Origin: Prescottella sp. R16
GTDB taxonomy: Bacteria > Actinomycetota > Actinomycetes > Mycobacteriales > Mycobacteriaceae
Direction: 5' to 3'
Length of the DNA: 64,000 nt
Assembly (NCBI RefSeq): GCF_030656875.1
Contig: NZ_CP130943.1
Coordinates: forward strand, 2,914,001 to 2,978,000
Shown: positions 1,134 through 3,095 of the stretch, piece by piece
How the letters are laid out: every line of letters begins with the position of its first letter
Numbering within the stretch: the stretch's first letter is position 1
Translations under genes and position numbers: made by a program
The notes under the pieces: generated by a model
The model's input: the letters and a program-made list of their open reading frames with translations, nothing else
Told to the model about the DNA's origin: nothing
The model's database searches: none

Positions 1134-1317
1134 CGGGGGTCAACCTTCCTGCCGAGCGGATACGCGCGGGGATTCGGGCACAGCAAACTCGGATCGGACT
1201 CCGAGCGGGAGCGACGTCCGGGAGAAAACGAGCACAGGGCGGCTCCGCGTCCCGATGCGGGACAGCGGGCGACGGTCACACGGACCGGACTCGAAAAGGG
1301 GGGGAACGCCGAAACTG

Positions 1318-1410
1318 TTATCGACAACAGTGGATGTCGGCGACCGCTAAACCGCCGACCGCGATCAACGCCAGTTCATGGCGGACTCGGGGAGCGGTGA
1401 CGTGCGGCAC
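1318..1410 (-). CDS. Cys-codon leader peptide upstream of subI copy 1 (30 aa)
   Basis: GTG at 1410 opens a 30-codon frame ending RVRHELALIAVGG...DIHCCR, with two adjacent TGT Cys codons just before the last Arg and the TAA stop. A -10 element TAGAGT ends 7 nt before the GTG, so the mRNA probably starts at the start codon (leaderless). A peptide differing at few positions precedes the second sulfate-binding gene, which shows selection on the peptide or its RNA. Short leaderless frames with terminal Cys codons before sulfur-assimilation genes are known in mycobacteria as cysteine-responsive attenuators, where translation through the Cys codons controls the downstream gene. That mechanism is inferred here from family resemblance. 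About 184 nt separate its stop from the subI start. Confidence 0.8.
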   Translation of the reverse strand: MPHVTAPRVRHELALIAVGGLAVADIHCCR

Positions 1411-1463
1411 GGGGGCGACTCTAGCAGAGCCCGACCCCGTGCCCCACATCTGTACGGGCAGTG

Positions 1464-1541
1464 TCAGCGGGTGAAGAACCACGCGACGACGACCAGAACG
1501 ATCAATGCGATCAGTGCGATGGTCACGCGGGAGCGCGGCAT
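1464..1541 (-). CDS. Very small single-pass membrane protein (25 aa)
   Basis: ATG at 1541 follows directly after the TAG stop of the 73-aa gene and encodes 25 residues beginning MPRSRVTIALIALIV and ending WFFTR. A basic N-terminus, about 16 continuous hydrophobic residues and a terminal Arg form one clear transmembrane helix. A good Shine-Dalgarno, GGAGGA, lies about 7 nt before the ATG inside the end of the preceding gene. This argues that the frame is translated even though it is too short for routine gene calling. It is the last gene of the unit subI copy 2, 73-aa protein, 25-aa protein. The function is unknown. A role as a small subunit or modulator of the sulfate system is only inference from position. 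Confidence 0.6.
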   Translation of the reverse strand: MPRSRVTIALIALIVLVVVAWFFTR

Positions 1542-1763
1542 CTAGTAGTCCTCCACCTTCGTCTCGGCCGGCCGGCCGGTCGGGTCGACGAGCTCGCCGC
1601 GCCCCAGCAGTGTGAACACCGCCGACAGGGCACGGTCGAGCAACCATGCGATACCGAAGCAGGCCGGAATCATCACCGCGAGCACCAGGATCACCTGGGG
1701 GACGAACGGCAGGCCGGCGACCCACAGTTCGGTGCCGTCCCACCAGCTCGCGATTCGATCCAC
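1542..1763 (-). CDS. Small membrane protein, function unknown (73 aa)
   Basis: This frame begins with GTG at 1763, 9 nt after the stop of subI copy 2, and is probably translated by coupling because no strong ribosome site precedes it. The protein has an amphipathic start (MDRIASWWDGTELW), a long hydrophobic region at about residues 18-50 that can hold one or two membrane helices, and a charged C-terminal tail of about 20 residues. I do not recognise a named family. Its stop is followed without a gap by the 25-aa gene. Its place directly behind a sulfate-binding gene suggests a link to sulfur uptake, but nothing in the sequence shows a catalytic or transport motif. Confidence 0.7.
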   Translation of the reverse strand: MDRIASWWDGTELWVAGLPFVPQVILVLAVMIPACFGIAWLLDRALSAVFTLLGRGELVDPTGRPAETKVEDY

Positions 1764-1772
1764 CCGGTCAGC

Positions 1773-2804
1773 CTACTTCGTCGCATTCTCGTAGACGACG
1801 GCGATGCTGCCGCTGCCCGGCCGGAACAGATCGGTGTCGACGGTGTCCCAGCCGCCCAGGTCGTCGATCGACCACAGCTGCTGCGGTTCCGGGAAGTCGG
1901 CAGCGTACTCGGCTGCCACCGCCGGGTCGACGGGACGGAACCCGGCGCGGGCCCAGAGCCGCTGCGCCTCGGTCGTGTACAGGTAGTCCCGGAACGCCGT
2001 CGCCCCGTCGATGTTCGGGCTGTTCGACAGCACCGCGACCGGATTCTCGATCGCGAACGTGACGGGCGGGGTGACGTGCTCGACCGGATCGCCCTTGCGT
2101 TCGGTGAACAGGGCCTCGTTCTCGTAGCTGACGAGGACGTCACCGGTGCCCTGCAGGAACGTCTCGGTGGCCTCGCGACCCGACTTGGGTTGCACCGTCA
2201 CGTGCTCGGTCACCAACTTCTCGACGTAGTCGAGTCCGGCCTGCGGATTCTTCCCGCCGTCGCTCGCAGCAGCATACGGGGCCAACAGATTCCATTTCGC
2301 CGACCCGGAACTGAACGGATTCGGCGTCACCACCTCGATGCCCGGCCGCAGCAGATCGTCCCAGTCCCGGATGTTCTTCGGATTCCCCTCCCGCACCACG
2401 AGCGTCACCACCGAACCGAACGGAATCCCCCGGTATGCGTCCCGGTTCCAGCTCTCGTCGACGAGACCGGCGTCCACCAGCCGGGTGACGTCCGGTTCCA
2501 CGGAGAAGCTCACGATGTCGGCGCGAGCCCCGTCGCGCACCTTGCGGGACTGGTCTCCCGACGGCCCGTACGACGCGTTGAACTGGACTCCCTGCCCCTC
2601 TTCGGTGTCCGCGAATCCAGCGGTGACCTTGTCGAATCCGGGCTTCGGGACGGCGTACGCGAACAGGTTGACCGTCCCGCCGCTGCCGTCGGAGACGGTC
2701 TCGCCACCGCCGGTGACATCACTCGAACCACCCGCGCACGCCGTCGACACGGCGGCGGTGATCGCAACGAGGGCGGTCAGGAACGAACGGGAACGAAGTC
2801 GCAT
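1773..2804 (-). CDS. subI: Sulfate-binding lipoprotein of an ABC transporter (copy 2)
   Basis: This second 343-aa binding protein has exactly the same length as copy 1 and is very similar throughout. It shares NLFAYAVPKPG, the SYGPSGDQSR segment and the TPNPFSSGSAKWNLL region. ATG at 2804 is chosen because it gives MRLRSRSF followed by a hydrophobic stretch and the lipobox STAC with Cys at residue 23, matching copy 1. A longer frame upstream adds 15 residues without signal-peptide character. It is not followed by a permease but by two tiny membrane-protein genes. It may serve the same CysTWA permease with different affinity, or be a recently duplicated receptor. A Cys leader peptide lies 84 nt upstream at 2889-2978. 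Confidence 0.92.
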   Translation of the reverse strand: MRLRSRSFLTALVAITAAVSTACAGGSSDVTGGGETVSDGSGGTVNLFAYAVPKPGFDKVTAGFADTEEGQGVQFNASYGPSGDQSRKVRDGARADIVSFSVEPDVTRLVDAGLVDESWNRDAYRGIPFGSVVTLVVREGNPKNIRDWDDLLRPGIEVVTPNPFSSGSAKWNLLAPYAAASDGGKNPQAGLDYVEKLVTEHVTVQPKSGREATETFLQGTGDVLVSYENEALFTERKGDPVEHVTPPVTFAIENPVAVLSNSPNIDGATAFRDYLYTTEAQRLWARAGFRPVDPAVAAEYAADFPEPQQLWSIDDLGGWDTVDTDLFRPGSGSIAVVYENATK

Positions 2805-2888
2805 GAGAGGAGTGCCTTTCCGGCAGGCCGAAGTGGTACGAGAGGACACCCGGCGGCAGGCCGGGTGACGGGGTGCAGGGAAACCGGT

Positions 2889-2978
2889 TCAGCGACAGAG
2901 AATGTCGGCTACCGCCAGGTCACCGACCGCGATCAACGCCAGTTCGTGGCGGACGCGGTGGGCGATGACGGTGGACAC
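2889..2978 (-). CDS. Cys-codon leader peptide upstream of subI copy 2 (29 aa)
   Basis: GTG at 2978 starts a 29-codon frame reading MSTVIAHRVRHELALIAVG and ending DILCR before TGA. It is nearly the same as the leader at 1318-1410 in the core RVRHELALIAVG and in VADI..C.R, but has one Cys codon instead of two. A -10 element TACTGT ends 7 nt before the GTG, the same leaderless layout as the other copy. Known mycobacterial Cys leader peptides act as cysteine-sensing attenuators for sulfur genes, and that role is inferred here. The distance to the binding-protein start is 84 nt, 100 nt shorter than in copy 1, so the intervening regulatory RNA has diverged although the peptide has not. Confidence 0.78.
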   Translation of the reverse strand: MSTVIAHRVRHELALIAVGDLAVADILCR

Positions 2979-3095
2979 GGCGCAGACAGTAACAGAGGCC
3001 GGACCCGCCGCCGAGGGTTGAAATCGGACTGCGGCAAAGTACCCGTCGCCGGGGAATCGTGGACGCGGACTCGATGCCGGGTCGATGATGAACAG

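Follow-up and report, generated by a model that had tools for sequence, protein, structure and literature searches.

Leaderless short open reading frames (ORFs) which respond to cysteine are said to occur in mycobacteria, and the present analysis deals with a pair of similar frames in Prescottella sp. R16. The window, that is the whole analysed stretch of 64,000 nucleotides (nt; contig NZ_CP130943.1, positions 2,914,001 to 2,978,000 of the forward strand), harbours on its minus strand two short leader frames, each located ahead of a gene for a sulfate-binding lipoprotein; we designate the downstream copy D and the upstream copy U. The available excerpts of Shell 2015 provide the published precedent for leaderless Cys short ORFs of mycobacteria, and those of PMC9031893 and PMC13236596, both citing Canestrari 2020, document that cysteine-responsive leaderless short ORFs have been published for this group; the literature drawn on comprises excerpts of PMC4633059, PMC13236596, PMC9094748, PMC9031893, PMC1262725, PMC8632094 and PMC8079986. 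As far as these excerpts describe them, the polycysteine short ORFs Ms5788A and Ms4527A (Shell 2015, Canestrari 2020) share with the frames studied here a leaderless-type hexamer, terminal Cys codons and sulfur genes downstream, but they contain a run of Cys where only one or two terminal Cys are present in the window, and their core peptide is a different one. With the Ms4533A family (NCBIfam NF042937) the two window peptides have in common scores over the cut-off, equal length and the core ALIAVG...AVADI.C; what sets them apart is their arrangement as a tandem pair and the single Cys of copy U, to which the term "Cys-rich" applies poorly. The kind of leader is hence already known, as it constitutes a named NCBIfam family. 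We consider it quite probable that the two frames encode Ms4533A-family leader peptides which act in cis within a tandemly duplicated unit, and that stalling of the ribosome at a UGU codon under low Cys-tRNA would permit downstream expression. This interpretation is backed by family membership, hexamer spacing, conservation, gene context, duplication within the genus, invariance of the UGU codon and selection at the level of the peptide. Ribosome stalling and the direction of the response are inferred; the downstream step would be either translational, at the ribosome site, or transcriptional, via Rho.

Both window peptides exceed the curated cut-off (31 bits) of NF042937, which is entitled "Ms4533A family Cys-rich leader peptide", and among the places scored in their own genome they are the only ones to do so. 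No match above this cut-off is found in 14 control genomes, 8 of which gave sub-cut-off matches at E ≤ 1. Within the genus (Prescottella, Rhodococcus equi group) a leader over the cut-off is present in 14 of 14 genomes. Since both peptides score over the cut-off, none of the controls does and all genus genomes possess the leader, an explanation by chance ORFs was rejected. At family level matches with E ≤ 1e-4 occur in 204 of 401 genomes, and at class level in 42 of 393, 19 of these lying outside the family; outside the genus, the family-level search revealed two leaders in one genome alone (G037), on separate contigs, where it has to be considered that at most 19 or 20 candidates per genome were scored in the family- and class-level searches and second copies may be missed. 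False frames lacking a usable start were excluded from the leader sets; locus L101 yielded no leader, nor, by the rule used, did seven of the 79 named loci (L141, L147, L155, L160, L176, L177 and L181). An Rfam element was considered for the leader region and rejected, as a single sub-threshold match was obtained for the window (21.9 of 88 bits, E 0.35; gathering score not reached), while seven related loci of three genera gave none at E 0.5 or below.

Peptide D, MPHVTAPRVRHELALIAVGGLAVADIHCCR, is encoded from the GTG at 1410 to the TAA at 1318-1320, and peptide U, MSTVIAHRVRHELALIAVGDLAVADILCR, from the GTG at 2978 to the TGA at 2889-2891. The stretch common to both is RVRHELALIAVG, while the C-termini read CCR in D versus CR in U. 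A TGN-TANNNT arrangement precedes both frames. In the 25 genus leaders, which were collected without use of the hexamer, its distance to the start amounts to exactly 7 nt in 25 of 25 cases; elsewhere, in the non-genus and named sets, the hexamer guided the choice of the start, so that hexamer counts from these sets do not constitute independent evidence. A scan with the strict sigma-70 consensus detects no promoter at the hexamer of leader D, and a strict TANNNT 5-9 nt ahead of the start is absent in 17 of 19 leaders of two other families. The placement of the hexamer suggests a transcript whose 5' end coincides with the GTG or lies immediately beside it. The original prediction, which had described GTG frames of 30 and 29 codons with a shared stretch, a Cys-Arg end and a hexamer 7 nt before the GTG, proved accurate in all of these features, the minus strand being left unstated. 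Its interpretation found partial support: the assignment as Cys leader peptides with a leaderless-type hexamer ahead of sulfur genes is right, the two genes might, as it suggested, respond at different cysteine levels, and the comparison with short-ORF leader families which it proposed led, for both peptides, to the NF042937 match given above. The positions of all features are compiled in the table.

Table. Features of the two leader units; positions refer to the window. aa, amino acids; C1, first terminal Cys codon; C2, second terminal Cys codon; pS, synonymous divergence.
Feature	Position	Strand	Remarks
Leader peptide D (downstream copy)	1318..1410	-	GTG start, 30 aa, C-terminal Cys-Cys-Arg-stop; NF042937 leader_Ms4533A 58.8 bits, E 4.4e-16
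Leader peptide U (upstream copy)	2889..2978	-	GTG start, 29 aa, C-terminal Cys-Arg-stop; NF042937 46.8 bits, E 2.4e-12
TAGAGT, TANNNT-type -10 hexamer of leader D	1418..1423	-	7 nt 5' of GTG; TGC precedes; from sequence
TACTGT, TANNNT-type -10 hexamer of leader U	2986..2991	-	7 nt 5' of GTG; TGT precedes; from sequence
C1 of leader D, UGU	1327..1329	-	C2 at 1324-1326, also UGU
C1 of leader U, UGU, sole Cys codon	2895..2897	-	next codon CGC, Arg; from sequence
In-frame hairpin CGCCA-N5-TGGCG within leader D	1369..1383	-	conserved third positions; lower pS in that half of the ORF; seen in single-sequence folds
In-frame hairpin CGCCA-N5-TGGCG within leader U	2937..2951	-	single-sequence folds, third-position conservation
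Spacer RNA D, 184 nt	1134..1317	-	C-rich; C/G 1.40 from stop to Shine-Dalgarno
Spacer RNA U, 84 nt	2805..2888	-	without P2 region of longer spacers; own GC-rich hairpin
Stem P2 5' arm, spacer D (CGGCGTTC)	1304..1311	-	begins 7 nt past stop
Stem P2 3' arm, spacer D (GGACGTCG)	1212..1219	-	genus alignment pairing
Shine-Dalgarno AGGAAGG of binding protein D	1144..1150	-	GGAAGG invariant in alignment A2, 22 genus leaders
Shine-Dalgarno GGAAAGG of binding protein U	2815..2821	-	from sequence
Sulfate-binding lipoprotein D, 343 aa	102..1133	-	first gene of subI-cysT-cysW-cysA; TIGR00971 153.3 bits, just under cut-off 155.5
Sulfate-binding lipoprotein U, 343 aa, duplicate	1773..2804	-	TIGR00971 168.0 bits, above cut-off 155.5

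The first terminal Cys codon (C1) is UGU in each of 121 distinct leader ORFs, and the 19 leaders examined from two other families all show it as well; it is thus constant across three families. A second Cys, where present, is encoded by TGT in 56 and by TGC in 9 leaders (TGC in 4 of 4 in the two other families), and for Cys codons farther upstream in the ORFs TGC is found 16 times and TGT 5 times (TGC in 14 of 14 in the two other families). The Cys background of 32 long window ORFs comprises 85 TGC and 15 TGT, and among the remaining NNY codons of the leaders a final T was counted 249 times and a final C 432 times. The Ms4527A leader of 14 genus genomes has five Cys codons, at which TGT is used, in order, by 9, 14, 12, 14 and 0 of 14 sequences. 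All of these UGU counts come from related sequences and are not independent of each other. No mention of the UGU rule was found in the portions of the literature available to this analysis, and it may be described in the main paper on these leaders (Canestrari 2020). We regard this rule as the part most worth following, followed by the peptide-level selection described below; both go beyond the family label.

Both leaders, D and U, are placed upstream of a sulfur-acquisition gene. Gene D is followed by cysT, cysW and cysA, nearly all of which lies beyond the window. For binding gene U the GTG at 2849 had been chosen as start by the automatic ORF call; it was rejected as the ATG at 2804 is provided with a Shine-Dalgarno sequence. 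Between the two units, two small frames of 25 and 73 aa are present at window positions 1464-1763 on the minus strand, the 73-aa frame having no Pfam or NCBIfam match; in three genus genomes (G001, G003 and G006) the gap between the units measures merely 121-122 nt.

The tandem pair of leader plus sulfate-binding gene is present in 11 of 14 genus genomes, for which reason the duplicate was rejected as a peculiarity of this window. When 37 binding proteins were placed in a tree, the 11 D copies grouped together as a single clade (99/95) within the genus, with the U copies and three single copies unresolved at its base. Most simply, the unit of leader and gene would have been duplicated once within the genus with both leaders retained. 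Two terminal Cys codons are present in 11 of 11 D copies, while among the U copies two are found in 5 and one in 6 of 11. The spacer between leader and gene measures 184-218 nt in the D copies; in the U copies it is short in three (70-84 nt) and comprises 216-249 nt in the other eight. The single Cys, the short spacer and the loss of stem P2 might be taken to mean that the U leader is decaying after the duplication and has lost its regulation, and the retention of two Cys in all D copies as opposed to one in 6 of 11 U copies points in the same direction. Yet hexamer, frame, core peptide and UGU are intact in 11 of 11 U copies, and a single Cys is normal in one-copy genomes, which renders decay quite improbable. 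Copy U of the window, which kept hexamer, peptide and UGU and possesses one Cys and no P2, most likely continues to function as a leader, its RNA portion being simpler.

Close to the stop codon, D has two consecutive Cys codons and U has one. Among the 121 distinct leader ORFs a second Cys follows the first in 65, its place being taken by Arg in 56. Seven leaders of genus g21 (L069, L077, L081, L082, L083, L085 and L088), whose genomes yielded one match each, possess just one terminal Cys, and the same is true of every leader from the 41 named Nocardia loci that have one. One versus two Cys is ordinary variation within the Ms4533A leader family. As single-Cys leaders include those of one-match genomes, the idea that duplication generally determines the Cys number was rejected. 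The original prediction had correctly stated that the copies differ in spacer (184 versus 84 nt) and in Cys number (two versus one), but the novelty claimed for this does not hold in view of the frequency of the pair within the genus and of single-Cys leaders within the family. What it observed is real and concerns a type of element already known, the claimed novelty being largely ordinary. The tandem pair represents a natural experiment in which Cys number and spacer differ while hexamer spacing and core peptide are shared.

For the 18-residue core preceding C1 the ratio of non-synonymous to synonymous divergence (pN/pS), pooled over pairs, amounts to 0.125 in the genus (25 leaders) and to 0.237 in 121 leaders, whereas the six codons ahead of the core show values of 0.862 and 0.779, respectively; these ratios are not tree-based, and the sequences are related and not independent. 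Judging from these values, the core is under purifying selection at the amino-acid level and the six preceding codons are not. The synonymous divergence of the core in the genus (0.38-0.40) is near that of the aligned spacer (0.46), and therefore the DNA is free to change while the residues are not. Within the frame, synonymous divergence is 0.22 in the first half, which contains CGCCA-N5-TGGCG, versus 0.56 in the second, and the first half is, by this measure, partly constrained as RNA too; as the arms of this in-frame hairpin are almost invariant, they do not permit a covariation test. As a control we examined the polycysteine leader Ms4527A (14 genus sequences), which shows a pN/pS of 0.107 for codons 5-18 and of 0.176 thereafter. 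Because this control is equally conserved, residue conservation is a trait of both Cys leader families, and it was rejected as a mark of the Ms4533A family or of few-Cys leaders.

Nascent-chain-dependent arrest is exemplified by TnaC and ErmBL. Transferred to the present leaders, the core would act in the exit tunnel, and stalling would depend on slow UGU decoding in combination with the nascent chain, not on codon starvation alone. Consistent with this version, purifying selection concerns residues in the part which would be placed in the tunnel and not those before it, synonymous divergence of the core is near that of the spacer, a single terminal Cys is present in 56 of 121 leaders, and the core (LALIGV...VAD) along with UGU is retained in another family despite a different target and spacer. 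On the other hand, the polycysteine control is conserved as strongly, so that conservation does not single out few-Cys leaders, and the in-frame hairpin accounts for part of the constraint on the first half. It is because of the equally conserved control that we slightly lowered our estimate for an arrest peptide, which we regard as possible rather than probable.

Concerning the RNA downstream of the leader, a stem just past the stop codon, P2, is formed in the genus. In alignment A2, comprising 22 of the 25 genus leaders with the three short spacers excluded, 91.4% of its cells are paired versus 24.8-46.1% when the stem is slid; its covariation is weak, with 3 pairs changed on both sides, a number equalled by one slid control. 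The stem is missing from the three short U spacers (G000, G002 and G012). The automatic model R1 lost P2 and hence was unused. Such a structure could be part of a translational attenuation in which folded RNA conceals the binding gene's ribosome site until it is opened by a ribosome that has stalled at the Cys codons, as is stated for mycobacterial leaders, citing Canestrari 2020, in the available excerpts of PMC13236596 and PMC9031893. In agreement with it, the calculated opening energy of the Shine-Dalgarno sequence averages 4.5 kcal/mol over 90 leaders, and P2 is highly paired. Against it, masking the RNA by a ribosome exactly at C1 shifts this energy in folding simulations by 0.009 kcal/mol on average (90 leaders); for the window leaders the change is 0.0 in D and 1.1 towards closing in U. 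A coarser scan of the ribosome along the frame displays no peak at Cys codons; as it masked every second codon, C1 itself was covered in part of the leaders, and the exact repeat covers 90 of 90. Pairing between Cys codons and ribosome site, which had been suggested as a folding check, consequently finds no support, and simple unmasking of the Shine-Dalgarno sequence by a stalled ribosome is not supported by the simulations. Together with the weak covariation of P2 and its absence from the short U spacers, this leaves translational attenuation a tentative candidate.

Alternatively, transcription might be attenuated by Rho, which would load on the C-rich spacer after termination of leader translation unless a ribosome paused at UGU blocks it, as proposed for tna. 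The spacers are indeed C-rich and G-poor, with C/G of at least 1.0 in 90 of 90 leaders and a median of 1.36, a value reached by 4.9% of 4000 random 200-nt stretches of the window. Intrinsic terminators are at chance level, one terminator-like match being found in spacer D and none in U, where 1.0 is expected from shuffles of the stretch scanned. According to the available part of the source, Seliverstov 2005 proposed Rho for mycobacterial cys leaders, the prediction being termed rather weak. Base composition, however, is weak evidence on its own, as C/G in 15 upstream intergenic stretches of the window, one of which includes leader U, spans 0.64 to 1.79 (mean 1.09), and the two papers mentioned above describe, in their available excerpts, mycobacterial leaders as acting on translation. 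Because of these two statements we grade the Rho-dependent and the translational step alike as possible rather than probable.

Returning to cysteine-responsive control of the two lipoprotein genes, the transcript would begin at or next to the GTG, so that a ribosome would translate the leader first. When Cys-tRNA is scarce, it would stall late in the frame, at the invariant UGU; the stall would allow expression of the binding gene and, in copy D, of the following cysTWA genes too, the outcome being increased sulfate uptake when cysteine is short. Several observations weigh against this proposal. A lone Cys codon gives a starvation sensor little to respond to. The spacer RNA is unconserved between genera, and no common downstream RNA switch is visible. 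Finally, upon masking at C1 the opening energy falls by more than 1 kcal/mol in 8 of 90 leaders, and a rise of that size is seen in another 8 of 90. The safest reading of the sequence data is an attenuation responding to cysteine in which the ribosome pauses at UGU shortly before a leaderless frame ends, with room for a contribution of the nascent chain.

In Nocardia, a different and well supported RNA element with covariation was observed after the leader stop (34 leaders, L125 ... L180). In alignment A1, which contains 34 of 41 Nocardia leaders (A3 contains 32 of those 34), 86.5% of its cells are paired compared to 32.8-42.7% when slid, and 23 of 44 pairs have changed on both sides. Two of the helices in the element would either be incompatible with P2 or make a pseudoknot with it. 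Four Nocardia loci scanned against Rfam gave no match. The Nocardia model R2 recovered 4 of 7 loci not used for its building at E 3e-11 or better and one at 0.05, while two were missed; three of the four recovered loci are near kin of a building row, and an eighth locus, L136, is itself a building row. Nothing below E 0.2 was obtained with R2 in the window, in 14 genus loci or in 20 loci of Rhodococcus and relatives, and the element was therefore rejected as a general downstream part.

Leaders of this type also occur ahead of other targets. In another actinobacterial family, two loci examined (L237 and L238) carry an Ms4533A leader ahead of an oligopeptide-type ABC transporter gene, for which the closest NCBIfam model is GsiB (glutathione), far below cut-off. 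In a third family, one locus (L235) possesses a leader match of 29.9 bits, which is below cut-off, ahead of a sulfatase gene. A bolder proposal, which we consider doubtful and rated slightly lower in view of the Ms4527A control, would regard the Ms4533A leader as a portable sulfur-sensing arrest peptide, whose 18-residue core would act in the exit tunnel during decoding of one obligatory UGU, so that one slow Cys codon would be enough. The same module would then precede genes for sulfate uptake, for oligopeptide-type transporters and for sulfatase, each with an unrelated spacer, and the choice of UGU over UGC would set its sensitivity. Should UGU be obligatory and the peptide itself be of importance, codon-specific decoding plus the nascent chain, and not the counting of Cys codons, would be the working principle of a large leader family of actinobacteria; this, if true, would explain regulation by single-Cys leaders.

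Further Cys leaders are present in the genus. A leader of the Ms4527A family (NF042936, 49.3 bits) is located at G000:C1:2904249-2904311 (L200), about 10 kb outside the first base of the window. Another Cys leader peptide, found at G000:C1:4154913-4154960 (L212) and in L213-L217, reads ...RRRHVDFA(L/H)VCT(C/S)GCR near its end; a TANNNT hexamer is situated 6-7 nt before the GTG of these leaders, and their last Cys codon is TGT in 6 of 6.

Compared to systems outside this group, the window leaders resemble the classical attenuators trpL, hisL and leuL in that the regulatory codons stand late in a short ORF which precedes a pathway operon. They differ from them in that the sole terminator-like match is at chance level and in that the residues before the Cys are conserved. 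The uORFC-8-2 motif upstream of cysS in Rhodobacterales is similar in its tandem Cys codons within a short upstream ORF, but, according to the available part of PMC8632094, UGC is dominant and an intrinsic terminator is present there, in contrast to the UGU which is invariant at C1 here. With the Trp-dependent arrest peptide TnaC (compare PMC10941005) the leaders may share their logic, namely an arrest close to the stop codon, with a C-rich spacer following; arrest and ligand sensing belong to TnaC, whereas the leaders described here would be candidates for such behaviour.

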